From positions 102,589,759-102,653,758 of the forward strand of contig NC_080578.1 of NCBI RefSeq assembly GCF_029962835.1: 64,000 nucleotides of DNA, read 5' to 3'. Origin of the DNA: Magnolia sinica. Lineage: Eukaryota; Streptophyta; Magnoliopsida; Magnoliales; Magnoliaceae. A program made the position numbers and the translations under genes. The number at the start of each line of letters is the position of its first letter. The stretch's first letter is position 1. Below, piece by piece: positions 1-35,128 of this stretch. Under the pieces are notes generated by a model. It did not search any database, was not told the origin of the DNA, and worked only from the letters and a program-made list of their open reading frames with translations.

Positions 1-2754
1 GTACCTCGTAAGGTGCTAAGGTACTTCCCATTAATGCCGAGGTTAAAAAGACTCTACACTATACCAGAGATTGCAGAGAATATGATATGGCATTCAAAGT
101 CGGCTCAAGATGATATTTGCATGCGTCATCCAGTGGTTTCGTCTATGTGGAAGATTGTAGATGAAAAGTATGCTGATTTTACTGCGGAGCCACGTAACGT
201 TCGTTTAGGACTTGCAACGGATGGATTCAATCCTTTTGGGAATATGAGCAATTCATATAGTTGCTGGCTTGTTATGATTGTTACGTATAATCTCCCGCCT
301 CATTTATGCATGCGGAAGGAGTTTACCATGTTAACACTTTTGATCCCTGGAAAAAAAGGTCCAGGACATGACATTGACGTTTACTTGCAACCGTTGATTG
401 TAGAGTTACTTGAATTGTGGGAAGGATCTGTGACATATGACTCGCACAGTAAGAATATGTTCACAATGAAGGCAATTTTACTATGGGCAATACATGATTT
501 TCCAGCATATGGACATCTTTTTGGTTGTAGGACAGGAGGAAAGCACGCATGCCCTATTTGTAGTGAGGAGATAGAATCGGTTTGGCTTGAACATGGAAAG
601 AAGTTTGCATATATGGGACATAGAAGATTCCTGCCATTAGGTCATGACTTTAGGACTGATAGAACTAGATTCAATGGGAAAGAGGAAAAAAGAAAGGCTC
701 CGAAGCGTATGAAAGGTTCAGATGTACTATGTAAAATGAATAATATTGAAACCGTTTTCGGAAAGCAAGTGGGAAAGACTAAGAAAAAGTCTAAGAATGA
801 CCCGAACAACATTACTGTCTGGACGAAGAGATCAATCCTTTTTGACCTGCCATACTGGGAGCATTTGCTCATTCGTCACAATCTGGATGTGATACATGTT
901 GAGAAAAATGTCACCGAGAACCTTATTGCAACAATCATGGATACAAAAGATAAGACTAAGGATGGTTTACAAGCCCGTCAGGATCTTCAGGCTATGAAAA
1001 TAAGAAAGTCTATGTGGCCTGAAGAAAGAAACGGCAGGTTATTCTTACCCAAAGTTCCTTTCACGTTGTCCACATCTGAAAGAAATATGTTTTGTCTGAC
1101 ACTGAGCAATTTGAAAGTCCCAAGAGGATATTGTGCAAACTGGACACATCGTGTCAATTTAGAGGATTGTCAGCTAAAGGCCCTCATGTCACATGATTAT
1201 CACATTGTGATACAGCAATTGCTACCAGTTTTGTTGATGCACTTGTTTTTAGGAAAGAAGAAGACATTGCGCACTGCCATTTGTGAAATGTCAAGATTCT
1301 TCAACGTCATATGTTCAAAAGTTATTAATCGTGAAGAGCTTCAAAATATGAAAAATAAAATAGTGGAAACATTATGTGTATTTGAAAAATATTTTTCCCC
1401 ATCTTTTTTTGTTCCTATGACACACCTAGTGGTGCATTTAGCAGAGGAAGCACAACTTTGTGGACCTGTCAGATATTGGTGGATGTATCCTTTTGAGAGG
1501 TAACATTAATTATCAGAATTTATCAACTTTCTTTTTCCATTTTTTTTTTTTAATTTATATCCATATCTGATTTTAATGTGTATAGGATGATGAGAACATA
1601 CAAAAAGTATGTGACGAATCAAACTTATCCAGAGGGTTGTATTGTTGAACGCTACATACTGGAAGAGTCCATGATGTACTGCATGGACTACATGCCTGAT
1701 AAGATGTTAGGAAGCCATAAGAGAGTGAAAAAGATATTCTATGATGAAGGTGATGATAATACCGATAATTTCCAAATCGATAAAAAAGGAAAAAGTTATC
1801 TTCTTACTAATGTGCAATATCAACAAGCACGCAAATGGGTATTACAACATCACACTGAAAATGCTCAATGGCTGGGGTAAGTTGATAAAAGTCTATGTTT
1901 CCATCCTTAATGTTTTTAAATTGTACCATGTAAAGTAAAAAGTTTAATTTATATATTATATTATATGTGAATTGTAGGAAGTACAATGAATACATTCATG
2001 GCCAAACACGCAAGGGACAAAACAGGAGGGGCAATCCGTCGGTACAAAAAGAAGTAGATTACAATGCTTGGTTAAGGGATCAATTAGAGAATGAAGAAAT
2101 GTCACAATTTAAGAGAATCGCTACTGGTCCTAGCTACGATGCCACATCATACAGTACATACTCAGTAAATGGATATGTTTTTTGCACATCAGACTCTGAA
2201 AAAACTTGACAACACAAAACAGCGGAGTCTCTATGAAAGCCTTAACTATGTTCAGGGCGAGTGCCAGGGATAAGAACTTGGTGGAACAGGAAGCCACCTA
2301 CTATAGTATCATTAGACAAATTCTTGAATTAAACTACTTCACCTTCAAGATAACATTGTTCTACTGTGATTGGGTGCATATCGAAGATACTTCAAATGGA
2401 TGCTATGTAGATCCTGAAACAAATCTGATATTTGTTAACTTAGGAAGGTTTAGAAGGAATATCAAGGAAGAGGATGAGCCATTTATACATGCATCTCATG
2501 CGGCTCAAGTCTTCTATTGCAAGGATCCGACAAGAGATGACTGGCATGTTGTATTAGATGTTCCGAAGCGACTAACAAAAGATGCATATGCATTTGAGGA
2601 TCCACTAGTGTTTGAGGCCAGGTTGACTACAGGTTCCTCGAGCCCTTCCTTAATAGATGATCTGTATGACCCAACTAGTGAAGATATACAAGAAGGGTCA
2701 TATGTAGAAATTGAATCAAGTAACCCACCTATTCAGAAGCGAAAGAGAAACTGA
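1..2754 (+). pseudogene. TNP2-like CACTA transposase (Transposase_21 / DUF4218 / DUF4216), partial and frameshifted
   Basis: This is the catalytic transposase of a plant CACTA element, which acts in the nucleus on the element's terminal repeats. Three exons can be read: 1-1499 (open from the window edge), 1586-1876 and 1978-2754, with GT/AG borders at each intron. The first exon shows Transposase_21 features (LRYFPLMPRL, ATDGFNPFGN, ACPICSEE) and runs into DUF4218 (FVPMTHLVVHL, PVRYWWMYPFER). Exon 2 continues DUF4218 (MRTYKKYV). Exon 3 ends with DUF4216 (LFYCDWV, HASHAAQVFY). One base is missing or extra near 2195-2205: the frame closes at TGA 2207-2209 and the homologous frame resumes at once in another register, so the copy is a pseudogene unless that is a sequence error. 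The N-terminal transposase-associated region lies off the left edge. Confidence 0.9.
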
Positions 2755-2927
2755 TTAAGTTTCATATCAAGTTGAAATAAATTTAAGTACTTTTACTATA
2801 TTAGATTATTTTCCTTTTCATTTTTTTCTAAATTCAGTAAAAACTTATGCATGTGTATAGTGTCATCTCTTTATTATGTATAGCAACATATTAAATGACT
2901 AATAATCTTAATTTTTTTTTAGAAATT

Positions 2928-4536
2928 ATGTCGTATGTAAGGCCTTCTAGTTCTGCCCCAGGAAGCACTACAAAGATAAAAGTTTCAATTGGTCCAGTTG
3001 GAGAGAGTACTGGAGATAACAAAAATCAATTCACCTCATTTCTAGGAAATGTGGTCAGGACTCATTGTCCAATTGCATACAAAGACTGGCGGCTTGTGCC
3101 AGATACCATCAAGGATAATGTTTGGTCAACTGTTTTGGTAAGCATTTAAATACATGAGTTTTACTTTCTAATATTTATAATATAATTGTTGTTGACTAAT
3201 TGCCCTATTTAATGAAATATGTAGGCCAAATATGATGTTGACGACAGTGATAGCTGTAAAACTGCCATAATTAAGCGTGCTAATGATATGTAGAAGGACT
3301 GGAAGAACCGATTACAAGGAACTGTCCTAGATATGTATGATAATGATGGAGACAGGAAAAAAAATTGCCCTAATGGCGTAAAGCTAGAAGATTGGGTCAA
3401 ATTCGTTGATTATGAATCTACAAAAGAGGCAAAGTCTCGTCGTGGAAAAGGAAAGGAATCCAGAAGCGAAATGAAGTTCCCTCACACGACTGGGTGACTG
3501 GGATCTGCTAGGACGGTAGAGTTGATTGTAAGTTTTTAATATAACTTTAATTTCTTTTAATCCAATTTAAGAATACAGAATAATTAACATGATTTCTCAT
3601 TGTAAATTACAACAAAAAAAAATCCAGATACTCAAATCACGAGAACTGAATTGTTTCTGGCAACTCATACTAGATCCGATGGGTCTCTCCCTTCACAGGA
3701 GCTGAGCATCACAACGGAAAAAATAAAAGACATAGTTGTCAATGACCCGGCTTGTATACATAATGATTTAAATCACGACCCGGTTGCACAGGTTTTTCAT
3801 TCATTCTCTTCACTTTGACATACTTAGCTTTGTGAACATTTTTTGTTACTAATATACATGCATTACTAATAATGGTTGATTATCATTTAGGTTTGTGGTC
3901 TTGATAAAAGAGGACGTGTAAGGGGGTTGGGTCATATTATAAAAATTACCATTATTGCTTCAACCCCTTACATTAATGAAATTAGAGAAGGAAATGGCGA
4001 AATTGCTGAGGTTAAAGCATCGATGATTATATTAAAAGAGCAAATGGAAAACAAGATCAACGAGTGCAAGGACATGATATTGACCATTGGAGAACGTTTG
4101 CTTGAAGTTTAGAATCAAATAAATACTCCAGTTCAACCAATGCAATGCTCTCCAGGCACTGCTGGTTCTCAGGTATTTTAACAATAAAAGAATAATGTAC
4201 AGTTACTATTTTATCCATGAAAATAATAATTATTATTTCTTGTAGGCGTTTTTTCGATCTGGCGATACCTCAAGTCATCGTGATGAGTCAGCTCCACATC
4301 CAACTCCACTTCTACGGGTGGAACAAATCTGTCATTTGACAGATATTTGTAGTCGAGTTGTTGCACGTGGGCGTCTGATTAGAGATAATGCAGGCATCCC
4401 TCCAGATTGCATCAAAGTTATATTGGATGTTGTTGAAGTTCCCAGTGCGAATATGTTTGGTGACATTGAGAAGACGTTAGCCGATTGCGACGTGGATGAT
4501 GTTCTCGTTTGGCCTAGAATGCTGACGAAAATATAG
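2928..4536 (+). pseudogene. TNP1/ENP1-like CACTA accessory protein (Transposase_24, Ptta/En/Spm), decayed
   Basis: This is the second gene of the CACTA element, 170 bases after the transposase stop, on the same strand. TNP1-type proteins bind subterminal repeats and assist transposition. Exons read with GT/AG borders are 2928-3137, 3225-3527, 3628-3791, 3891-about 4172 and 4246-4536. Recognisable family blocks are CPIAYKDWRLVP in exon 1, KDWKNRLQ plus a FPHTTG block in exon 2, RTELFLATHTRSDGS in exon 3, GLDKRGRVRGLG in exon 4 and a C-terminal block ending DDVLVWPRMLTKI in exon 5. In-frame stops at 3291-3293 (TAG), 3495-3497 (TGA) and 4110-4112 (TAG) break it, so it looks inactive. Family assignment is by motif memory; exon borders are inferred. 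Confidence 0.75.
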
Positions 4537-5220
4537 ATATTAAAGGAGTTTACTTAAAACTTTTCCTAAGTCAAGAACATATTTTTGTAATTTGGTCAGG
4601 ACATATGGATTGTGTTTGAGGTTATTTTGGATATTATTTGACTAAATCTTTATCTTGAATTATTTAGTAGTTTTGCTTGACTAATCTAGTGATTTGTTTC
4701 AGCTTTTCATCTTCTTATGCGTGACAAAAGATACACATATTTCTATTATGATTTATTTTAATTTTTTTCTTTGCTTATGCGTAAAATGTTCTGATTTAAA
4801 TATTAAGAACTACATAGTGGCTTGATCCCAATCTTCCAAACATTGGGTACGTAGGCAACCGTTCATACTAGACCGTATCGGTGCAGCCACAATTTTATTT
4901 TATTTTCCCTTCTCGTAGTGTGGATGCATTTTCATCAAGACTACTTGACAATAAGAGCGAGGTGGATGTAAGTTCTCGAAACCTTTAATTAGTCTCAAAT
5001 CATTTATATCTTTATCGCTTCATTTATATGTTGTCGTTAGGGTCAACTTGTAACTCCTCAGAACCCGCTCTGCCGTAAGACATTACGGTGCATAACGGTT
5101 CCCAGTAGGTTAAGTTGCAAATTATTATTAAGAGTTGGTTGGATATATTTTATTTTTTGTAAATGTTGTTAATAGTTTGATGGATGATGAATGTATTTGT
5201 GAATGTAAATGAAAAAAAAA

Positions 5221-5222
5221 AC

Positions 5223-5290
<68 letters not shown>
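5221..5290. repeat. Compound microsatellite (TTA)n-(AT)n
   Basis: A TTA/ATT trinucleotide run directly followed by about 20 AT dinucleotides. It lies in the non-coding part of the CACTA element. Confidence 0.95.
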
Positions 5291-5293
<3 letters not shown>

Positions 5294-6889
5294 ATCAATG
5301 GAGGATGCCTTGTTTAGGGGGACATGAAATTTTGTAGCTTATGGTATGGTGCCCCAATATTGGTTGTATGTTACTAGTATGTAGTAGATAATACTAGGAT
5401 CAATAGTAAACATTTTGTTTTGAGTGGAAGACCAAGTAAAAGAATTTGGAAGATGTACTTTTTATGCCTTTCAGCTTCAAACTAGATACCTTTTGGATAA
5501 ACCAAACATCCATTCACCACTAGTTTTCCAACTTCAGATTCATACTTTGGAATTCAGATTTAACAAATACCAACCTGGCATGTTTTGGTAGGAAATGAAT
5601 AGATAGTTTAATGTTTATTTTTTCTTCTTTTAATGCGATTTGTGTGATAGACGGTTGCAAGTGTTCGGTTTATGTGATTGAATTTGCTATTTTTTTCCTT
5701 ATTTTTTCATTCCAAAGTTATCTGGGATTTTTTTTAGTCTAATATCATCCCTTGCACTTGCATTAAGCACTTCTATGGGCATTTTCACGTGTTGTATCTT
5801 TTACAACATACATGGCTGACTCCAATGGTGATGGTTATGGCAAAACTGAAGATGTTAATGCATTGACAATCATGGTTTTTTTTTTTTCCCCAACTTGACA
5901 GTCATTGAAATCAAGTGATTCAGGTGAGATTTTACAAGGACATTGTTAATGAACTGCACATGCATTGGATTCTTTTCTTTAGTTTGATCTCCAAATTCTT
6001 GCATTTTACTACTAACAGTATTTGTTTTAGTTGCAATGCATGTTTGGGGATCTATTTATCTTTTCTTCTTTTCCATTACACCTAGAGCTCTTCCTTAGCT
6101 CTGGAATTGTTTGCCTCTCTATTTAGTCATTGGTTGCTAGGATCTTTGGCATGAATCTCTCATATACATGGAATCTAAACTATGGATATCTATTTAAATG
6201 GGTACATTTTCTCCTTTTTTTTTCCCTTTCAAATAGACAATATGTGCTTGACCAAACACATGATATTTTCGTATACAAATCAAGTTTCTTCATGTGGTCC
6301 CGAACAGTCAACATGCATGTGGGACCAGCCTGAATTATGGGCCAGGGCATCTATACATATAGGGTTCATCTGATGCATGGATTGTGCTGATTGCCAAGGT
6401 GCTCCTCATGGTAGGCCCACCTTTTGGACAAGTTGGATGTTGCATGCATGACAGGTTAGAAGTTGTCCACTAGCTGGACAATAACCTATGGTCCAACTTA
6501 GCTGAACTTAATGCATTATCCCTACTCAAAAAAGAGTTCGAATTGTTGGGAAATAGGAATTTTCCAGTTCCCACACTTTCCTTTGGTCATGTCGTTAGAC
6601 ACTAGTGCATCAAATGCAGATTGCCTTGCACTATTGTGTATTGATTCCAACATCTAAAGATCCTTTCAAACTGTATTGTGCTCTCCCAGTGAATGCTATG
6701 AAGTTAAGAAATGCTCTTACCTGAACCTCTAATGGCTAGGATGAATTCTAATCTTTTATTTTGTTAATTGGTTTCAGTTGATTAAACTCTTCACATTTCA
6801 TGGATTTGAGCTGGTTATTTGTAATATATGAAGGGTTGACTAAACTATTCTTTTCTTGGATTGAATCTGGTTGTTTATAATATATGTAG

Positions 6890-6974
6890 GAAGGGCTCAA
6901 AAGAAGGTTGAACAAGAGCAGATACTAAGTAGCCAATTCAAGGCAAGGCATAGCCAACAGCTGAAGTTCCGGGT
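6890..6974 (+). other. Possible captured exon inside the CACTA element
   Basis: An 85-base segment preceded by AG and followed by GTAATTT has one open frame rich in Gln, Lys and Glu (AQKKVEQEQILSSQFKARHS) that looks like part of a coiled-coil host protein rather than transposase. I do not recognise the gene. The evidence is only an open frame with plausible splice borders, so it could be chance. Confidence 0.3.
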
Positions 6975-7202
6975 AATTTCTTTTGTACGGGTCCTAGTTT
7001 AAGAGGCGAAAATGTTTAGTTAGTAGGGTAAGTCAATTTTTGTTGGAGTGGGCCACTTGGATCATTTCCTCTTTTATTGAATTGATTTGTTACCAATTTT
7101 GTGAATAGGATTCTTATCAAACGGTAGTTTGAATTATTTCTTGAATGACTATCAGGTGCCAGATTAAAAATAATAATAATAATAATTTATCAATATTTTG
7201 TT

Positions 7203-7715
7203 TTATTTATAGATATTTTAGCGACGGACCAAATCCGTCGCTAATTTGTGAACAAAACAAAAGACGGATTTGAGGTCCGTCGCTTACTCATATTAGCGAC
7301 GGACCCTATCCGTCGCTAATTTCTGACCGTTGAACATCAACGGATTTGAGGTCCGTCGCTTATTCATATTAGCGACGGATCTTATCCGTCGCTAATTTCT
7401 GACCGTTGAAGATTAACGACGGATTTGAGGTCCGTCGCTTGCTCATATTAGCGACGGATCTTATCCGTCGCTAATATTTTTAGTAACGACTGATTTTTTG
7501 AATTTTACCGATGGATTTTTTTACTTTTTACGACAGATCTTATCCGTCGCTTTGAAACGATGGACGTTATCTGTCGCAGATTAAACGACGGATTTTATCC
7601 GTCGAAAAAAAATGACCCAATAAACAGCAACGGACCCAGCGACGGATGAAATACGTCGTTTATTTGGTTTTACGACGGATTTGGTCCGTCGCAAATTGGC
7701 GATTTTGGTGCAGTA
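7203..7715. repeat. CACTA subterminal repeat array and 3' terminal inverted repeat
   Basis: The motif GCGACGGA and its reverse complement TCCGTCGC recur more than a dozen times, often as paired inverted copies around short spacers (for example at 7219-7243 and 7295-7319). The segment ends in GGCGATTTTGGTGCAGTA. In CACTA elements such arrays are the binding sites of the TNP1-type protein. Copies decay toward the middle (for example ATGGACGTTATCTGTCGC). Confidence 0.85.
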
Positions 7716-12950: not shown

Positions 12951-14439
12951 TTGGGTATAACTCGATCCGATCCGAAATCTCTATAGCCTGATCCGAACTC
13001 GATCCGGTCCGGGACCGAGTTCGGGTCACCTGACTCAGACCGATCTGATGCATAGTTGGCCTAACCCGAACCGAGTCCGACTCGGTCAGGGAAACCGAGT
13101 CGGATCGAATTGGGTACGATTCGGATAGTTTGAATTTAATTCAACTGTTTCATGTGGTGTGGTCCACTTCAGCCTTCAATATATAACATTTTTATGCTTA
13201 AGGCCTAAAATGATATGTTAAAATGGATGAACAACTTAGATAAAACATATACATCAAGGTGGGCCCCACATGACTCTGAAAGAACTCTATCCATGTTTTC
13301 ACTGGAAGTTTTACAATGTTGACGTGCACTACACGAAAGTGCAGTGCCGTCCTTTTCACGCAAGTCCATGACTTGTTGTATGTAAGTTATGTGGGTCTAA
13401 TAATGGGGTATGTGTTATATCCAAACCGTCAATCCATTTGGCGAGCTCGTCTTAAGGCTTGAGACGAAAAATAAGACAAATCTAACTATTGTGTTGACCA
13501 CACAAATTGTTTAACGATGAAAATATTCTTTGCTACTATTTTTGGTGTGGTCAGATGATCTTTGGATATTATTTATTTTTTGGATAATGCTCTATAATGA
13601 TATCTAAAAATATATGAACGGTGTAAATATAATAAATACATCACTGTAAGCCATGTAACTTTGATTTCCTTTGAACCGTTCGTACAACTCGGAGCTCGAG
13701 GAGAGTCAGTGCTCATCTTTGCACGACACATACCTATAGCAGCTGATGGATGTCAGATAGACATCATAGTGGGCAGGCGCACAAAGAGGGAAACGGATTG
13801 GCTACTCCCTCTAACATGGTCGGTGTTATGTGGGCCCCAACATGACGTATGTGTTTCATCCATGCCATCCATCTATTTTTAGAGATCATTTTACAGTACG
13901 AGTCCAAAAATGAGGTATATCCAAAACTCAAGTGGACCACATTACATGAAACAGTGTTGAATGAGAGTCGACCATTAAAAACATTTTGAGGGCCATAAAA
14001 GTTTTGGATCAAGCTGATCTTTGTTTTTTCTCTTCATCTGGGACTGTATGACCTAATCAATAGATTGGATGTTAAATAAACAGTATAGTAGGCCTTAGGA
14101 GGATTTTAATGGTGGATATCCAACTACCATTATTTTCATGTAGTGTGGTCCACCTGAGATTTATATTCCTCTCATTTTTGGTACCAAGATATAACGTGAA
14201 CTTTAAAAATGGATGAACGGAATGAACAAAACACATATATCCGGATCGGGCCAAATCGGATCCAATCGGATCGGATCGGTCCGGATAGGCATGGATCCGA
14301 ATTCGACCCGAAAAACTTTTGAATCTAGCCTGACCTACTCGATCCGCACCAATCCAGACCGTTGGATCGGTTCGGATCATGTCGGATCTAGTCAGATCGG
14401 GTCGGATCCACCAGATCGGGCCAAGATTGCCCAGCTCTA
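12948..14439. mobile_element. Second hAT copy, left terminus missing
   Basis: It is a near-identical direct copy of the element at 9586-11088, ending in the same TGCCCAGCTCTA. It starts inside the element: about 30 bases of the left end, including the TAGAGCTGGGCA repeat, are absent. The homology abuts the duplicated segment at 12945. No target duplication can be tested. Any mobility would need the lost terminus. Confidence 0.85.
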
Positions 14440-16472: not shown

Positions 16473-16910
16473 ATTCACTACACCAAAATTGCTGTTCTGG
16501 AACGGCTATAGTTTTGGTTCAGAAACGGTTTTAAGCCCTTTCTGATGCAAAACGGTTTCGAACTGTACTCGAGTACAGAGATGGGGCACATTTCTAAACA
16601 CTTAATTAAGACCAGGCCCACCATGATGTTTACGAGAGATCTATACCGTGCATTTGTTTGGAGAGATCATTTTAGAACATTAGGATAAGATTGAGTTGGA
16701 TCGAAAATTCAAGTGGGCCTCACGGAAGGAAATGAGGGGATTGGGTGACCACCGTTTGAAACATTCGTACGGCCACCAAGTTGATTAGGTCAGGAGAAAA
16801 AATGCTCTCTGTAGCAGCAGTTGTCTCAGAGCCCTTTCTTCTTCTCCAGAGCAAAAAAAGAAAAAGAAAAATCATCTCCAGCATCTAGAAATTTAAAAAA
16901 AATAATAATA

Positions 16911-17159
16911 ATGCTTGAAGAATCACTGCCGTCCATCTGGGATTCCATGCACAGCTGGTTCATCCCTACCGTCCTCTTCATCATCATCAACGTCGTCATC
17001 GGCACCATTTCCTTCTCTTCCTCCCAAAAGGAAGAAAAGAACCCCAAACCCCAACTCGCCCGCACCTCCATTTTAGAAAGGCTCAGATCCTTCAATCTCT
17101 ACCGTCTGAAAGCAAAAGAAATCCCTACCACCCCCCCCCATATCGTTACCCCCAAATGA
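16911..17159 (+). CDS. DUF4408 protein N-terminal fragment captured in the Pack-CACTA
   Basis: An 82-residue open frame whose N-terminus (MLEESLPSIWDSMHSWFIPT) matches the plant DUF4408 family. A hydrophobic segment at about residues 17-34 (PTVLFIIINVVIGTISF) and the conserved SILERLRSFNLYRLK block follow at about residues 51-66. Family members usually run on to a C-terminal DUF761 block that is absent here; the frame closes at TGA 17157-17159. The chosen start is the family start; the same frame is open 30 codons upstream. The family is of unknown biochemical role; some members are stress- or pathogen-induced. Because the fragment lies inside a transposon and lacks its C-terminus, I infer a transduplicated piece. 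It could still be transcribed. Confidence 0.7.
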   Translation: MLEESLPSIWDSMHSWFIPTVLFIIINVVIGTISFSSSQKEEKNPKPQLARTSILERLRSFNLYRLKAKEIPTTPPHIVTPK

Positions 17160-17867
17160 TCATCATCACCCAACACCGGTTCCGTTAATCCGGTTAGGGT
17201 TTTGGCGGCAGCAGCGTTGGGCGTGGTCAAGTTAGGCTTTTTGTTAAAATTGGTCTATGGCGGAATCTGATGGTTTACAAATGTTTTTTTTCTTTCTTTT
17301 GTTGAGATTAGGGATTTTCCAATATATTTGTGATTGATCGCATTTTGAGTTAGATATGTGGTGTTTGTTGGGTTTTCATCTTTGTGATTGTGTGAATCTT
17401 GCAATAAATGCTTGTTCAGGGTTCGTTTAGACAAAAAAAAAGATCTTCTTATCAGAGATGAGAAGTCTAGAAGCTTCTTACTGACAATTTTCTCAACGTT
17501 TTCTGCTTTTTGGAACTTCGAATCTCACAGTTTTTCTTGCTTTGAGGTTACCTTGTGGAGCGATTTTTAGGATTTTGTAACTGCATTGCTCGGTTTTTGC
17601 CTGTTTCCGTGAGAAATCTCATTTTGAAAGGCAAATGTGAGAGGTTTCATCTTGTTTTTACTCAGAATGTTGATTTTTTTTCTAATTTCCTCTCTCTTTT
17701 GATCACACACTCTCTCTCGCTCTCAAACCCTACATTCAAATCTGAACCCTAAATCCCCCTAGAAATCTCAAATTTTGAGCACAACCATCCAATCCATTGA
17801 TCACCGGCCTGAAAATATGAAATCTCTGGGTTTTTTTCGGTCCGATTCTTCAATTCCATTGCAGAAA

Positions 17868-17960
17868 ATGAGCAGTAGGAAGGAGGAGCAGAACGAGAAG
17901 ATTATCAAAGGTTTGATGAGACTTCCTTCGAATCAGAGATGCATCAACTGCAATAGCCTG
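17868..17960 (+). pseudogene. First exon of an AGD14-like ArfGAP gene, captured fragment
   Basis: The 31 codons from ATG 17868 to the GT donor at 17961 encode a sequence (NEKIIKGLMRLPSNQRCINC) typical of the N-terminus of plant ADP-ribosylation-factor GTPase-activating proteins of the AGD14/ZIGA4 group. It includes the first two cysteines of the ArfGAP zinc finger (C-x2-C). The next exon, which should carry the other two zinc ligands and the arginine finger, is not found downstream. The 500 bases before it may be the donor gene's leader. ArfGAPs act in vesicle traffic; this fragment cannot. Confidence 0.75.
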
Positions 17961-19860
17961 GTAATTGCAATCTCTCCAATCCTTTCTTGATTTTTTGTAT
18001 CCTCTGAGTTGTGTATGTTATAGTGGGACAAGCAAGTTCGCTTGCTGCTTATACATGCTTCAATTGGAGCTGGGACGAGGTTCATCTATGGTTGGAATAC
18101 ATTTCTTCTTCAGTTGGAATGAATTTCATCCTCATTAAATTTTATTTCCAATCAAAGTAGAAATGCATTTTAGGTTAAAAACATTAATGACTCGTTACTT
18201 AGTATATTATAAATTAGCTTGGATCATATACAAGCTTTTGTATGTAATAAAATCCCGAATAAACTTAAACCGATAGGAAACTAGAATATTAATCCCACAG
18301 AGAAGAGGAGAAGGGAAGGGGATTTAAGGAGTTTATGGGGTTTTGGATTGTGATTTTACAATTCACACCTTTCAAATATAAGAAGGATTAAGAGTTTTAT
18401 CTTTCTTTCTCTAACTCTGTCATTTTCTATTAGAAAATTCCAAAACTGATCTCAATGCGGGGAAAGAAGTCCTACAATCCTTGTAATTCTTTAACTAATC
18501 CCACTAATCTCAGCCTCTTAACTAATCATAATGATTAGTTGCTAAAGATCTTTGATTAGTTACTAAGAAAACTAACCCAACAACCTACAGCAGAAAATTA
18601 ATAGAATACAACTGAATTCCTGCTCAAATCAACAAATAGTAGAAAACAGTTTGGATGGCATATAAACATCAAGACGGAGCCTAGGAAGGTTTCAACGGTA
18701 GGAATTCCTTTTTGCACTATTTCATCTTGTATGGCCCAGTTGAGTTTTGGATCCTCCTAATTTTTTATCACGTCCTAAAATGAGCTCGAAAATTAGATGG
18801 ATGGGTTGGATTTCCCCACCTTGCATCCCAGCGCAGGAACTTCTGCGAAGGCCTTTCGCAGGAAATCTGCGTCCCCAGAGACGAGTAGGCATGGGAAACG
18901 GATCGGCTACTGCCCCTGACGCGTGGCTGGTGGGAAAAGGAATTCCTACCGTTGAAATAGTGGGCCATACAAGATGAAATAGTGGGAAAAGGAATTCCTA
19001 CCGTTGAAACCTTCCTAGGCTCCGTCTTGATGTTTATATGCCATACAATATGATTTCTTTCTCAATCTTCTTTTTTTTTTCGTTTTTTATTTTTATTTTT
19101 TGTTTTGTTTCTTTTTAGTAGAAAATCAGTAATAGTTTGTTGATGATAACATTTATAGGATAATGAGAAAGTGGATATGCGAAGGCTTGTTGATTGGAAC
19201 CAATCAAAGGGTAGGTGTTTATGAAATACAATTGCTTTCACATCATGTTGGTAATGACCTTCATGATTTACTATTCTTTGCTTTTCTCTGTCATATTCAC
19301 AAAAGTCTTGAAGCTAATTGCAATACCTGCTTAACGCTTTTAAAAATGGGTTCAATTCCTTGCCCAAAAACATATCAGTATGTATTCAATTATCTTTCAC
19401 TGTGCTTCAGTGTTATAATCAGGACAATCTACGTTGGATCATTGATGATGGTTTTGTACGTCACATGTCTAGTCACCAAAACATTGTACATCAGCATGTC
19501 TGCCATTAGAGTTCTTTTTTCCCTGGAATTTGTTGTAAAGATGCCATCTTTTCATGTTTTTCTTTGATTTGTCTGTGGTGATGATTTTCCACATCTGAAC
19601 TTTATGGCCCAGTTTGTCAGAACATCTCCATGTTTAAAAGGTGATACTATCAAAAAGTTCATGGTTAAGATGGGCCTGTTCGTGATAAGTGGGTCTTTGG
19701 CCAGTTTATTTTTATGTCCAATCTTGCATTTAAGCATGTAGCAAGCTGGTTGTGTGCATGTGTATGCAAAATCATCATGCCATTATTTTTAGTCTGAATG
19801 CATAGATTAAGTTGAATGTGATTAATCTTCAAGGTGGTATGTTACACTTCAGCTTTGTTG
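17961..19860. other. Pack-CACTA interior between captured fragments
   Basis: Holds the foldback repeat at 18656-19043. A possible captured exon at about 19160-19208 (AG before, GTAGGTG after; frame DNEKVDMRRLVDWNQSK) comes from a gene I do not recognise. The remainder is AT-rich non-coding sequence that could be donor-gene introns. Confidence 0.4.
18656..19043. repeat. Foldback element / hairpin with 83-bp arms
   Basis: 18656-18738 and 18961-19043 are near-perfect inverted repeats, for example 'tttcaacggtaggaattcc' against 'ggaattcctaccgttgaaa'. The loop is about 220 bp. It contains a second palindrome (ttcctgcg-type, around 18835-18865) that also occurs at 34855-34895, and a short extra copy of one arm segment at 18936-18975. 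It looks like a foldback MITE nested in the Pack-CACTA. A transcript would form a long hairpin. Confidence 0.85.
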
Positions 19861-19867
19861 AATGTAG

Positions 19868-19955
19868 GATGGTCATTTAAGAGTTTTCAAGTGGCTAGTA
19901 TGGAAGTCCTTGATCAGCCTGATGCCCATGCCTCTGTCAAAGATTTAGATTTCAG
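19868..19955 (+). pseudogene. SEC12/PHF1-like WD40 exon, captured fragment
   Basis: An 88-base segment between AG and GT reads DGHLRVFKW and then, after one or two single-base losses, DAHASVKDLDF. These are signature stretches of plant SEC12-like WD40 proteins and the phosphate-transporter traffic facilitator PHF1, ER proteins that promote export of secretory cargo. The shifts between the two halves break the frame, so it is non-coding as it stands. The segment 20733-20780 (frame YKDRFLAAL) may be the next piece, but that is weak. Confidence 0.65.
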
Positions 19956-20780
19956 GTACATGAAAATAATTGTAAATGTCTGAAAAATGTTTGTATATGT
20001 TTATCATCGTGTGACAAAAACATTTCTTTAGAATGATTAGCAATCCAAGGTGAGGCATCTCAAATAGATGTTTCAAGTTGATGATTAGATCTATTTTTAT
20101 CTGCTTTTACTGCCATTCTTTTGTTAGTACTTTCAGGTACAAGCAATAAGTTGCATTGTGAGTCAATGTAGGCATTTACATATAAATCTCAGAAGAATAT
20201 TAGTCTTGCAACCATTTATTTATCTGTTTGATTCGATAATGGATTGATGGATTCAGGCTCTTAGCATGCTGGATTGCCAATGCTTGAAGTGGCCTATCTA
20301 AAACAGGGCGCTGACCTAAAGTCATGTTGGTCCACTTATCTGGTTAGTGGTTAGCCACTGCATGTGGTGAATATGGACCATCTGAAAGAAAATGACTAGC
20401 AGTCTAGATTCCATGGCCCATCAATGAGTAGACCAGCATCATTTTGTGCCTGGAATGTTATTGGTGGGATCAACCTGATGAAGGATGTCACATAAATGTG
20501 TCATGTTGGCACGTGTGATGATTCACCTCTTGGATATCTCCTTGTTTTATTTATTTATTTATTATTATTATTATTATTTTTTGGTGTTCTCATTGTCTAT
20601 GTGAGGGAGTTCACCCTTATATAAGATGTGAACAAACATAAATCACTCATGCTTGCCTGTCAGCCTACTGGGATGTATGCAATTTTGCGTAATCTTTCAT
20701 CTGAATGTAATTGAATAATAATGTTGATTTTCAGCTACAAGGACCGATTTCTTGCTGCTTTGCGAGCACCTCGTGCTTCA

Positions 20781-20874
20781 ACCAAATCATATTTGAAATC
20801 TTCAACACTCCTGCTATGTATGTTGCAATCTAGGTTGTTCTCTTCCTTTATGTCAGTGGTTGCACGACTGGTAA
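20781..20874 (+). pseudogene. Actin gene fragment, captured
   Basis: About 94 bases align by eye with the actin coding region around residues 115-150: QIIFEIFNTPAMYVAI, then a stop in place of a Gln codon, then VVLS and LYVSGCTT. A stop (TAG at 20832-20834) and a small indel after it disable it. The right edge is not at a normal actin intron, so the piece was cut inside an exon, as expected of transposon capture rather than retroposition of a whole message. Confidence 0.85.
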
Positions 20875-21249
20875 GCAAGACTACTAGTTCTTATTTTGGT
20901 TTCTCTGGGCTGCATTCTCTTGATTACTTAAACAACAACAATGATACTCTTTTTTTTTTCTCTTTTTTTTCTTTTTCTGTCAATTATCAATTAATAGATG
21001 TTTCTATATTTGGTTCACTCTAATTTGAGAATACAGAACATCAATGCTTGATTGAACTTTGGAAGGTATTCGTGAATCAAAATACTCAAAATTATATGTT
21101 AATGCAAGCATGCAACTAATTTTCCGAAAGAAGAAACACATAACAACAAATTACAAAGACTTTACTAGTATGGATAACAAGGATTCTTTGTGCAAACACA
21201 TAACTCTACTAGTTTGGCTAACATTGCATTGTTGTTGCCAATTTTCAGG

Positions 21250-22905
21250 TATCTTTATAAGAGAGATTTGCTTCTTGCATCAGAGTTCAATATCATGACT
21301 GATTATATGCTGTCAGGTTTGTCAATTCAAGAGTTCAATATCATGTTGTTTATTTATTGTTTTTCTATTTTCCATTTCTTCTGATACCTATTGTTCGTGT
21401 TCATAAGCTATGCAGTTGTAGATTAAGAATACATCACGTCATGTCGAAATCATGGAGTTTTTGTTCAAATTGTAGTTTGTTCTTTCCTAGAGGTTAGCCC
21501 GTCAATGCTTCACGTAATATTAAAAATTTGTAGGAAAACCATCATTGTCATCATCATCGTGGCCCCTCCTAGCTATTTGTGGTTGACTTTTAAATGGTAG
21601 ATTGCAGAAGTTTTATAGTGAGCTGCCTACAAGATATCAACCTCCTCTTTTACCGGGGATCTTGAAAACGCCAATGGAGAGGCTCATATTAATACCACTT
21701 TCATGCTAACATCATCCCACACAGTACTGATCTCTAACGTAACTATTACACACAGACCCCCAGTGGGGGGACAGCAAAGTAGTATCACAGGCGAACCTAT
21801 ACTATGCTCATTTTAATTTCTGTTCCTTGCAGGTGTTCTGCAAATTGGATGGTTTAGTGGAGGAGATCCGATCATTGCAGCCACCAGTGGATTTGTGGAG
21901 GAAGTTTGTATACTGTACTTCTCTATCAGGTTACAGTCTTGGGACAGTGGATCATATGCAACCGCAAGGTAACTTTCAGCTTATTTGAGTGTGACACAGA
22001 AACATGATGGTTTGCTCATGAGATTAGGATTCCGAATCTTACTCAACCCACACATGCCAATGCTGTATGTGTGGTGAGTCTCAGCTGTTCATGAAATGGG
22101 TCCCCACTTGCTGTGAAAAAATAAAATAAAATAAATCAAGTGGTCTGGCCACACATTGTTAACAATGGACGCTTAAAAAGAATCAACTAGGTCCACATTC
22201 AACATGACATGTGCCACCTAATGACCAGATTGGTGTGACTTTTGTTCCAGAGGAGGGGAAAGTTGGACTTCTACTCCACTGAGTGGCCATAGCAAGCTCA
22301 TAGCATTTAAGCTATTTCCTGAACGTGGTTGTTAAAGATGGATGGTCGAGAAACTCACCCTGCTGCATTCCTCTTCTGCAGATTTTGAACGAGTAGTCAG
22401 CCCAGTTTCTGTTGCACACTTATCACAGTACAAGCTTACCAGATTGCTGCTCAAGCAGCTAGAAAAACTAAACTTTCATGTTTATACCTGTGATGGGTCA
22501 CAAGTCCCAAACAAAGGTTCCACATGGGAAAGGGAGATTTTGATGGGTCATGAATGCATATCAATTGATCGCACTGCTCATGGTGTCATGGTAGGTGCTT
22601 CCTTTCTTAAGGGAAAAAGCTACAGAGAAACATCCACTGCCATATCCTTGTTGGTTCAGATGGTGCCAGAATTAATGTGAGAAAACTGGTCGGCGTAGAT
22701 ATGAAAGGCGAAAGGGACTTGCAGAAGCTCTTCAGTGTCCCTTTCTTAAGCAGAGATCTTGGACAATTCCTACTGCATCAGAGGCCTGGAATGTTATTCT
22801 TTATATTTAATCCAGAAGCCATAGGGTTTCGTGTTGCGCATGATCTTGGACAATCACCACTACTGTATGATCCTAGAGAAATGCTTGCTATCCTTGGATT
22901 TTAAG
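21250..22905 (+). pseudogene. Exons of unidentified host gene(s), captured
   Basis: Four open blocks follow each other. 21250-21315 (YLYKRDLLLASEFNIMTDYM) and 21832-21970 (KLDGLVEEIRSLQPPVDLW … SLSGYSLGTVDHMQP) have AG/GT borders. 22342-22680 is open for 112 codons (LTRLLLKQLEKLNFHVYTC … SIDRTAHGVMVGASFLKGKS). 22677-22905 overlaps it in another frame (EAIGFRVAHDLGQSPLLYDP). Composition and periodicity look like real protein, possibly one multi-exon donor gene. I do not recognise the family. The last two blocks only join through a frame change, so the copy is probably broken. Confidence 0.5.
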
Positions 22906-23190
22906 TTTCTCTACAGGGAGCCTGTTTACAAGATCATAGCAAGGTGAAGGTATGCTTCTCTTCTTCCATCTCTTCCTTTCAGTTTCTTTTAAATAGCTTC
23001 TAAAAATAAAATCATGTCTATCTCTTTGTTGATGGAAGGAGTAATGCCAGAGTTGAAGAGCCCAGAGTTATCAGAGAGCAGCCTTTATAGGTAAAGCACA
23101 CAAATCTAATTTCCTTATGGTTAGATATATGTCCATATGTGCTTTTGACACATTTAATTTCCTTCAACACGTTTATAGGTACAGCCGTGA

Positions 23191-23537
23191 GGTGATAGCT
23201 TCACGAGACGGTCCATCTTTGACTGTATGATCGCCGATTCCATCCCGGTTTTCTTCTGGAGGCGTACAGCCTACCTACAGTACGAGTAGCATTTACTGAA
23301 AGACCCGAACTCGTACTCAGTTTTCATTGATAGAAGGGCTGTGAACAACGGAACCTCAATTCGAGCCGTTTTGAAAGGGCTGGGAGAGGAAAGAGTGAAG
23401 AGGATGAAAGATAAGATAGTCGAGTATATACCGAAGTTTGTGTACGCCACCCCCAAAGAGGGGTTGGCTGGTATGAAGGATGTGTTTGATGTTTCCTTGG
23501 AAGGGTATTGAGAAGATTCCAGGAGCAAAGGACATAA
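23191..23537 (+). pseudogene. GT47 glycosyltransferase (exostosin-like) C-terminus, captured and broken
   Basis: The frame [20 protein letters not shown] followed by [11 protein letters not shown] and later YSVFIDRRAVNNGTS is the C-terminal part of plant GT47 exostosin-family enzymes (MUR3/xyloglucan galactosyltransferase-like), Golgi enzymes of cell-wall polysaccharide synthesis. A TAG stop at 23287-23289 stands where the family has Trp, and one base is missing near 23503, after which the normal C-terminus is out of frame up to TAA 23535-23537. The N-terminal two thirds of the enzyme are absent. The fragment ends about 340 bases before the right subterminal repeats. Confidence 0.8.
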
Positions 23538-23859
23538 ATGGAATTAAAAAATTAGGAACGGGAGATCTTGTGTGTTGTATTTTGTACTTATCTTGGGTGG
23601 GGTATATTGACGAAGGGACAGGATGTTGAAGTAAATCGATGGACAGTTGGATGGATGTGGTTGGTGGATTTTATATTGATTGGTTAGCTACAAAGACAGT
23701 TATTAGTTGCTACTGCAGTCTCTATAGTTAGAAGATTATTATGTGTGTGAATCATTCTATTGTCTTTTTCTTCTATTTGTGTAATTACCTGGCATATAAT
23801 ACAAGTAGATTACATACCCCACTCTCTCATACAATGAACAAAGGGGTTTAAAATTGTTA

Positions 23860-24107
23860 TTAAAATTCCGTCCTAAAATCTTACCGTTGGCAACATTAAT
23901 AAGCATTCATAACCGTTTCTAAAATGGTGCCTAAAATGTGACCGTTGGCACCAGAACGGTTTAAAACCGTTCCTAAAACGGTACCCAAAACAGTAATGAA
24001 CCAATCCTGATTTTCTGCTACGCTTCATTTAGGAATGGTATTAAACTGTTCCTGAAGAATTTAGGAACGGTTTAACACCGTTCCTAACTGACGATTTTGG
24101 TGTAGTG
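23860..24107. repeat. Right subterminal repeats of the Pack-CACTA
   Basis: Repeated AACGGTTT / AACCGTTCC inverted pairs end in GACGATTTTGGTGTAGTG. The same core motif AACGG is present just inside the left terminus, which supports both ends belonging to one element. Confidence 0.8.
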
Positions 24108-24110
24108 ATT

Positions 24111-24688: not shown

Positions 24689-25673
24689 ATGGGAGATATT
24701 AGTGAGAGTTCAAACCTCGATGATCCGTACCATCTCTTCAAGATCGTTTTTAATGCAGAGGGTTCATTCACACGGCCCAACTCCATTCCTCGCTTACCTC
24801 CACAAGCTGAGGTGCAGCCACCCTACTACGTTCTCTCCAAAGTCATATCCCTTAATCCCTCCAACAACACATGGATTCGGATATTTCGCCCTCAGATTTT
24901 GAAACCTATGGCCCCTCTCCCCATCATTATCTATTTCCACGGTGGCCGTTTCATCATCGGCAGCGCTGCATCTGCTCCCTTCCGCGTGGCATGCGAGCAC
25001 ATGGCCAGTCTTATCCCTGCCATCGTCATTTCGGTCGAGTACCGACTAGCTCCCGAGCACCCTCTCCCCGCCGCGTACGATGATGCGATCGAGGCCGTCT
25101 GTTGGGTAAGATACCAGGCCATCTCCGATCTCCACCCCGACACGTGGATGGCCCCCGATCTCGCCGATTTCTCGCGTTGTTTTCTCATGGGCGCAAGCGC
25201 CGGCAGCAACATCGTCTACCACGTGGCCCTACGGGCGTTGGATCTGAACCCTCCGTTCAAGATTGCTGGGGCGATCGTGAACCAGCCCTTCTTCGGTGGG
25301 GTCTAGAGGACGGAATCGGAGCTGAGGATGGCCCAGGATCGGATCCTGCCCCTCCATTACAACGACCTGATGTGGCGCCTGTCCTTGCCGGGTGGGGCCG
25401 ACAGGGACCACGAGTTCTGCAACCCGATGACGCCCGGGTCCTACCACGATCGGGTCGGGTCTCTGCCACCGTGCTTGGTGAAGGGGTATGGCGGGGACCC
25501 GCTCGTGGACCGCCAGCGCGCTCGTAAAGATGCTGGAAGATCGTGGGGTCCGCGTGGTGGGCCAGTTCGATGAGGAAGGGTGCCATGGCGTTGAGTTCTT
25601 TGATCCACAGAAGGCCCAGGCCCACTTGATGGACGTTAAGGATTTCATCTCGTCAGTCAGCAGTGGGCTGTGA
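24689..25673 (+). pseudogene. Plant carboxylesterase (CXE, alpha/beta-hydrolase fold 3), one stop and one frameshift
   Basis: An intronless frame of about 327 codons, the normal size of plant CXE/GID1-type hydrolases, which cleave small esters or (in GID1) bind gibberellin. Seen in order: oxyanion-hole block YFHGGRF near residue 85 (family HGGGF; the third Gly is Arg here), EYRLAPEHPLPAAYDD, nucleophile block MGASAGSN near residue 168 (GxSxG), NQPFFGG, the Asp block DPLVDRQ and the His block GCHGVEFF. Thus all three catalytic positions are present in the sequence. A TAG at 25304-25306 replaces the usual Gln after FFGGV, and one base is missing near 25516-25522, so the His block is in another frame. 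The coding part is much more GC-rich than its surroundings. It is a recent pseudogene unless the two changes are sequence errors. Confidence 0.85.
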
Positions 25674-25844: not shown

Positions 25845-26320
25845 GGGAGCGGATTAGGGGTTACCCTTGCCGTGGGACCCACCTTGATGATTTGTTGTAT
25901 ATCCACGCTGTCCATCAGTTTCTCTAGCTCATTTTAGATGTGGTCCTAAAATATTAGGTAGATCCAAATCTTAGGTGGACCACACCAGAGGAAACAGTGG
26001 TGATTGAGGGACTCACCGTTAAATATTCCAGAAGGCCCATCGTGGAGATTTTCTCAATGTTTATTTGCCATCCAACCTTTTTATAATGTCAAGCAGTGAA
26101 AGGAAAATACAAACATCAGCTTGATCCAAAACTTTTGTGACCCACACAAAGTTTTTAATAGTCATTCATCACTGTTTCTAGTGGTGTGGTCCACTTGATA
26201 TTTTTACCTACGTAACGATTGGTATTACGTCTGAAAATGAGATTTAAAAACAAATGAACGGTATGGATATACGACAAATACATCAAGGTGGGCCCCACAT
26301 GGTAAGGGTAATCTGCTCCC
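25845..26320. mobile_element. MITE with imperfect terminal inverted repeats (Mutator-like class?)
   Basis: Left end GGGAGCGGATTAGGGGTTAC; right end …GTAAGGGTAATCTGCTCCC. Next inside come 'gtgggacccaccttgatga' and 'catcaaggtgggccccaca', again inverted. The direct repeat AAAGAT lies just outside both ends (25835-25840 and 26321-26326), perhaps the remains of a longer target duplication. The interior ('gatccaaaacttttgtgacc', 'gtggtgtggtccacttga') is shared with several other elements in the window. No coding capacity. Confidence 0.7.
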
Positions 26321-34406: not shown

Positions 34407-34867
34407 AAGTTCCTGCGCTGGAAAACTGGGTGGGGCTCAACGTGATGTTTTTGAGAAATCCACCCCGTACATCAGTGTTCTGAGATCATTTTAGGACTTG
34501 AGACTAAAACTGAGAAGGATCCAAGACTCAAGTGGGCCGCACTAGAGTAAAAGGTAGGTATGAAAATTTCTACCGTTGAAAACTTTCTGGGGCAGAAAGT
34601 GATGTTTAAATGACATCCATACCGTTAATAACTTCATTCCTACTTGGATGAACTGAAAACACAAATATTAGCCTGATTCAAAACTTCTGTGGCCCACAAA
34701 TATTTCAACTGTGTACGTTCAATACTCACATTTTAGGTCCACTTGAGTATTGTATACCGCTCATTTTTGGCCTATCATCCTAAAAATATCTCAGAAAACG
34801 GATGTACGGGGTGGATTTCTCAAAAACATCACGTTGGGCCCCACCCAGGTTTCCAGTGCAGGAACTT
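34407..34867. mobile_element. Foldback MITE with about 67-bp terminal inverted repeats
   Basis: AAGTTCCTGCGCTGG at 34407 is the inverted counterpart of CCAGTGCAGGAACTT ending at 34867. The match runs inward through 'gggtggggct', 'cgtgatgtttttgagaaat' and 'ccaccccgtacatc' with few differences. The interior shares the MITE core. It ends about 340 bp before the start codon of the PQT3-like gene. A TTTCGCAGGAA palindrome follows directly at 34868-34895. Confidence 0.85.
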
Positions 34868-35128
34868 CCTGCGAAAGGCTTTCGCAGGAAATCCGCGTCC
34901 GCTGGTGTGAGGTACACCAGCCAATCCGCTTCCCTCGTTTTGTGGGCTTTTGCCCATTAATGATTTTAAAAAATTGATGGACGGTGTGGATTTCACACAA
35001 ACATCACTATGGGCCCATCTGGATCTCGGAACAGTGCATTTGGGAGGAAATCCGCCTCCCGATCCGCGTACTGCGTACGCATATCCTTCTCCAATTCCCG
35101 CCAACGGAAGCTTCTCCGCTAAGCAAAC

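Follow-up and report, generated by a model that had tools for sequence, protein, structure and literature searches.

A stretch of 7.6 kb (positions 16476 to 24107) in a window of 64,000 nucleotides from the Magnolia sinica genome (C6:102589759-102653758; assembly of 1.84 Gb in 127 contigs) is a non-autonomous Pack-CACTA transposon, bounded by terminal inverted repeats (TIRs) and a 3-bp target-site duplication (TSD). With a probability of roughly 0.87, we regard it as one of five copies of an element built as a mosaic of two CACTA lineages and a captured segment of a FAD mono-oxygenase gene, which moves or has moved as a cut-and-paste unit. It is read as a single mobile unit because of its TIRs, its 3-bp duplication, the presence of empty sites and further copies, and the likely source genes of its cargo. 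Positions within the element (el) are converted to window positions by adding 16475, and the coordinates of all features are collected in Table 1.

A mobile unit and its copies

Most of what a preliminary description of the window had claimed about the boundaries was borne out, namely inverted termini around a 7.6-kb element, ATT on both sides as a target duplication, matching subterminal AACGG motifs, and the lack of a transposase. The two ends carry the exact 14-base inverted terminus CACTACACCAAAAT, and they are its sole exact occurrences in the window; with up to two mismatches allowed, the 14-mer matches five times in the window versus 0.90 expected, and in the genome it was counted 628 + 599 times versus 7 + 9 for a reversed control. 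AACGG-type subterminal repeats are present at both ends, and the left subterminal region (el 1-320/326, or 26-326) is matched at five loci of the left lineage outside the five copies. No Pfam transposase matched any of the 36 element pieces scanned (26 on the plus and 10 on the minus strand, taken from the 115 listed open reading frames (ORFs) of at least 35 aa in the element), and the matches of the element to its transposase-bearing relative on C18 leave out the transposase ORFs of the latter. The exact CACTA-type TIRs, the 3-bp duplication and the tnp2-type relatives are those of the CACTA superfamily, and the element shares with Pack-CACTAs the lack of its own transposase, host-gene fragments that are found elsewhere without TIRs, and further copies with duplications of their own.

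The flanks joined with a single ATT turned out to be a dispersed repeat, and at least 38 loci besides the window span the junction at 76-86% (40 of 1948 candidates were scored). All seven paralogous empty sites that were fetched read straight through it, six of them showing one ATT and the seventh ATC. A search for other copies with the same termini, as suggested earlier, revealed at least four further loci with both halves of the element, on C1, C10 and C17 with perfect 3-bp duplications of their own and on C6 with eroded ends; 40 of the 6557 first-look candidates were scored, so that copy counts are lower bounds. Since further copies have their own perfect duplications, both termini belong to one mobile unit. 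The possibility that they come from different elements and enclose unrelated neighbouring pieces, which according to the preliminary description would have spoken against its reading, has next to no probability: some elements do have the left or the right module alone, but four other loci hold both, three of them with perfect duplications, and the empty sites span the junction. The other such possibility, that relatives without the termini have the fragments at the same place, was not borne out within the limits of a single genome.

The window copy differs from that on C1 at 218 of 6895 aligned sites, which corresponds to a Kimura two-parameter distance (K2P) of 0.032. The segment el 1719-2396 is deleted in the C1, C6 and C17 copies and kept in the window and C10 copies. 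Insertion of these 680 bp in the window was considered as an explanation of their absence from the C1 copy and rejected, as three copies share the absence; because it is shared and because it cuts through a nested inverted repeat, we read it as a deletion in a sublineage. The C10 copy is without el 4798-5652 and 6724-6852, and the C17 copy, with an insertion of about 3 kb, is without el 4621-5361. In the wider TIR family, 15 convergent pairs, including the C1 copy, were fetched whole from among the first-listed genomic places of the 14-mer, mostly less than about 12 kb apart; 11 have a perfect 3-bp duplication, three have one mismatch (L017, L019 and L026/L027) and one (L009) has none. Not counted were L023, whose sequence stops short of the right end, and the inner right end of L021, which mismatches the left flank (the outer one matches).

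Table 1. Features of the element in the window and its further copies in the genome
Feature	Position	Strand	Basis or match
TSD ATT, left copy	16473..16475		flank comparison, empty sites
Left TIR and left subterminal region with AACGG repeats	16476..16801	+	TIR 16476-16489
DUF4408 fragment, upstream sequence and start of coding sequence	16805..17129	+	PF14364 9.2e-12; source C1:132064431-132064762, 92%
Piece matching a cluster of C5 loci (23.67-23.89 Mb), unnamed source	17129..17428	+	without 122 bp present at C5
Piece with unnamed source	17442..17691	+	85% identical to C8:87397211-87397457
ArfGAP (AGD14-like) exon 1, upstream sequence and intron start	17710..17997	+	85% to C15:4596293-4596581
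Nested inverted repeat, like a miniature inverted-repeat transposable element	18641..19058		arms 98 bp, 94% complementary
SEC12/PHF1-like WD40 exon (~19860-19955) with intron flanks	19732..19982	+	83-85% to source-like genes
Sequence upstream of transposase in C18 CACTA	20311..20948	+	96%
Sequence downstream of transposase in C18 CACTA	21203..21359	+	93%
FAD mono-oxygenase (FAD_binding_3) segment, exons and introns	21367..22846	+	PF01494; source C3:61715371-61716862, 95.3%
End of FAD segment	22847..22930	+	filler of 15 bases similar to 22755-22774; beyond a ~160-bp skip, 69 bp of source
Right module ending in right TIR	22926..24107	+	also in the C18 CACTA that bears a transposase and, beyond the five copies, at four other loci
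GT47 (exostosin) 3' end and following sequence	23182..23728	+	93% to C6:17643031-17643581
Right TIR	24094..24107	-	exact 14-mer
TSD ATT, right copy	24108..24110		flank comparison, empty sites
Further copy	C1:19507263-19514209		TSD ACA/ACA
Further copy	C10:18316082-18322757		TSD GAG/GAG; two changes in right TIR
Further copy	C17:40791832-40801033		TSD TCG/TCG
Further copy	C6:37994398-38001368		eroded ends

Two element lineages and their probable fusion

The two halves of the element have separate distributions in the genome. The left module (query 17442-18192, i.e. el 967-1717; all 28 candidates scored against a threshold of 85% identity) is present at 11 loci, the five copies and six others, and partially at a twelfth (C15:36075781, 81%). 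With 40 of 181 candidates scored, the right module (el 6451-7632) is present at no fewer than 10 loci, the five copies and five others, among them the CACTA element on C18; two of the 10 have it in part, on C19 (only el 6996-7632) and C10 (with a gap), and short stretches of it recur at many more places. Among the loci scored, the two modules occur together only at the five copies.

The C18 element (13024997-13051290, 26.3 kb, TSD TTG/TTG) carries the same GT47 piece and reads, in order, el 3836-4473 (96%), a nest resembling long terminal repeat (LTR) retrotransposons, tnp2-type ORFs (PF02992, 2.1e-66; PF13960, 5.4e-17), el 4728-4884 (93%) and el 6451-7632 (92%). Because these matches stand in order, el 3836-7632 looks like a C18-type CACTA that is missing its transposase and has received the FAD segment, with the join to an element of the left lineage at el 3821-3836. 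An 11.3-kb element on C2 has the same ends and is 93% identical over 2329 bp to the ORF region of the C18 element, with ORFs that match PF13963 (2e-17) and, weakly, PF03004; the right module is also found in an element on C9 (TSD TTA/TTA). The left lineage is represented by L039 on C12, where pieces of the left part lie between el 26 and 3821, the ends are eroded and the right end is matched only distantly (75%), and by an element on C4 comprising el 1-2174, 2622-3475 and 3467-3841, broken by an insertion that we take to be hAT-like. The C4 element has a right TIR at 45791379 followed by TTG, which does not agree with TGT on the left, so that its right end is unproven. The earlier proposal that one element had gathered several donors is supported by the copies, the empty sites and the source genes, but what we see are two fused lineages rather than serial collection.

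At the joints, which were read by eye from the alignments, about 15-18 bases between the left and right parts match neither parent. The FAD segment starts about 7 bases past the end of the C18-type match at el 4884, overlaps the resumed match at el 6451 by TACA, and occupies the place of about 1.94 kb of C18 sequence; within it, about 160 bp of the source are skipped and the bridge resembles 22755-22774 (85% over 20). Such fillers and short similarities would fit break repair with template switching, which has been described for animal Pack-TIRs with internal filler and microhomology at breakpoints (PMC8277862).

Alternatively, a copy of the FAD gene could have been flanked by the insertion of a left-type and a right-type CACTA, which then lost their inner ends, whereupon the outer ends would have mobilized everything between them. 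Left-type and right-type elements do occur separately, and AB fusions have been published in rice, along with a model for Arabidopsis Pack-CACTAs (PMC8903248). However, the FAD segment is not located between the left and right parts but within the right-type parent, where it takes the place of 1.94 kb between el 4884 and 6451, and no remnant of an inner TIR was found, as with up to two mismatches only the terminal 14-mers match within 16476-24107. Neighbouring insertions can explain the left-right fusion and fit the FAD replacement less well, and as an account of the whole element we consider them rather unlikely.

We return to the mosaic of two lineages with a FAD capture, for which the following course of events can be envisaged. 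The left half would derive from a Pack-CACTA lineage that already held the ArfGAP and SEC12-like pieces and later acquired DUF4408. The right half would go back to a transposase-bearing C18-type CACTA that captured the 3' end of a GT47 gene; an internal deletion would afterwards have removed its transposase. In the last step, shortly before the five copies spread, the FAD segment would have replaced an internal stretch. The joints may have arisen through break repair with template switching, and tnp2-type CACTA relatives that share the 14-base ends presumably provided the transposase in trans.

Cargo, order of capture and decay

The fragments of DUF4408, ArfGAP, SEC12-like WD40 and GT47 genes listed in the preliminary description were all recovered, and alignment to the genome yielded likely sources, which are without CACTA termini in the stretches fetched. 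Absent from that list were the nested inverted repeat (18641-19058) and the FAD segment (21367-22930), the largest piece of cargo. An actin fragment, which it had included, is unsupported, as none of the 36 scanned element pieces has a Pfam match to actin and a 102-aa frame at 20715-21020 has no meaningful match in PDB. The DUF4408 source has an open frame with a PF14364 match, the GT47 source frame matches PF03016 (1.1e-56), and the FAD source frame matches PF01494 (3.6e-12). The whole FAD source span is C3:61715371-61717091, with 94.2% identity for the terminal part 22862-22930, and because the piece contains introns it was captured as DNA. The frame at the C15 ArfGAP source-like exon reads MSSRKEEERNEKIIRGLMKLPPNRRCINCNSL, later exons were not seen there, and the short exon at 17710-17997 has no Pfam match to ArfGAP; the AGD14 name is our assumption. 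For the WD40 exon, source-like genes with further exons lie at C3:124647.8k, C13:63528.4k and C15:49329.0k; the exon that follows the source-like one matches WD40 structures (best 3.3e-8, LST8) and is weak in Pfam, and we presume the SEC12/PHF1 identity. PDB searches with the short GT47, WD40 and 23057-23230 pieces gave nothing useful. Capture of the C5-cluster piece from a spliced transcript was also considered; by eye, the edges of its 122-bp gap are non-canonical as splice sites, and therefore we do not take the gap as evidence for retro-capture.

Mean K2P to the source over the copies is 0.150 for ArfGAP, 0.138 for the C8 piece, 0.070 for DUF4408, 0.055 for GT47 and 0.030 for FAD. The lowest value marks FAD as the youngest dated capture, made near the time of spread. 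Compared with the source frame in the five copies, nonsynonymous and synonymous changes number 8-14 and 3-4, respectively, in the FAD piece and 5-10 and 3-6 in the DUF4408 piece, and a 4-bp frame-breaking deletion in the FAD piece is common to all five copies. Judged by these substitutions, the two pieces look unconstrained, and the fragments are best read as passengers rather than as a coding gene.

Each of the five named fragments has the sense orientation on the plus strand, in agreement with the preliminary description, and the tnp2 ORFs of the C18 parent point in the same direction. Chimeric transcripts or small RNAs may arise from the element, given that in soybean the fragments of Tgm-Express1 are spliced as exons (PMC1947982), and one could imagine that this orientation was selected because a spliced chimeric transcript or small RNAs would act on the donor genes. 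We nevertheless find such selection very improbable, given that five of five in the same sense is expected by chance in 1 of 16 cases, that the FAD frame is broken in every copy, and that an LRR fragment in locus L011 of this family points the other way. Orientation is mixed in the family, a P450 fragment in L012 being in the same sense.

Several observations weigh against the mosaic with passenger cargo or restrict its details. The true donors may be paralogues of the sources identified here, above all in the case of ArfGAP and WD40 (83-85%). The transposases of the related elements may not be intact. About 190-255 bp (20949/21015-21202) and a multicopy stretch at 19095-19665 fall outside the assigned parts. 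Template switching is read from single joints, with the fusion of neighbouring insertions as an alternative. Copy-to-copy K2P is 0.042-0.064 in the right part versus 0.015-0.029 in the middle part, and as the right part changes faster, the order of the GT47 and DUF4408 captures is unsafe. Finally, the GT47 piece has 4-12 nonsynonymous and 3-10 synonymous changes, with one or two new stops in four of the five copies, and such a ratio near 1:1 does not by itself show neutral decay.

Surroundings, known systems and implications

Some related sequences deserve mention in their own right. Relatives of the nested inverted repeat lie in the window at 34455-34900, 13858-13956 and 25911-25999. Two loci, L047 (C14:70293000-70295300) and C11:64335111, have the segment el 2918-3841 at 97% and with identical boundaries; the copy at C14:70293376 adjoins an ORF that we take to resemble a long interspersed nuclear element. 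In L049 (C15:36075500-36077500), the C8 and ArfGAP pieces stand joined in an older copy (81%), beside an exon presumably related to GATA factors. A piece at L042:6279-6686 on C9 is repeated at 92-96% at a minimum of 14 other loci, several of which share right-end segments, and the window retains the final 72 bases of this piece (22926-22997); it has no Pfam match above the cut-off, and we assume that it represents a 5' exon of an AP2/AIL gene. The nested stretch of the C18 element (L041+L043+L044) seemingly comprises three LTR-like copies of about 2.5 kb. The C9 element adjoins an NLR-like ORF (L042:37-1382; PF23559, 5.5e-23; PF00931, 2.5e-6) and perhaps interrupts a relative of resistance genes. 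In the window itself, a carboxylesterase-like ORF on the plus strand (24689-25303; PF07859, 4e-34) begins some 580 bp downstream of the element. It is probably a decaying gene, as its frame meets a stop at 25304 and is lost further on. Positions 1-2751 of the plus strand contain tnp2-type transposase remains of another CACTA (PF02992, PF13960, PF13952).

CACTA elements with several donors are already published. Tgm-Express1 of soybean is a 5.7-kb CACTA that contains both exonic and intronic regions from five unrelated host genes (PMC1947982). The Magnolia element likewise carries fragments of five host genes, but it is 7.6 kb long, has five copies, other genes and visible parent lineages, and was not seen inside a gene. 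Arabidopsis Pack-CACTAs and rice and maize Pack-TYPE elements have TIRs, coding DNA from multiple loci and fused elements in common with it (PMC8903248); in contrast to them, the Magnolia element comes partly from a transposase-bearing CACTA that shares its GT47 piece, and one of its captures looks like an internal replacement. With the gap-filling Pack-TIRs of animals (PMC8277862), it shares internal filler and microhomology at breakpoints, and it differs from them in being a multicopy plant CACTA with several donors. Literature on CACTA, transduplication, gene fragments, Pack-TYPE and Magnolia included no title on this family, which says little.

For the acquisition of genes by Pack-type elements, competing models have been published, i.e. 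fusion of neighbouring insertions and gap repair from other templates. In Magnolia, the parts, several intermediates, a transposase-bearing parent and the likely donors are found in one assembly, and hence the steps can be ordered. For genome annotation, they carry the warning that the five gene fragments described here are transposon cargo and not genes. We tentatively suggest that transposase-bearing CACTAs may capture gene ends, swap halves with Pack-CACTAs, repair breaks from host genes and in this way feed the pool of non-autonomous elements. If this is true, the element family would be a readable record of modular assembly, with transposase-bearing elements as vectors.

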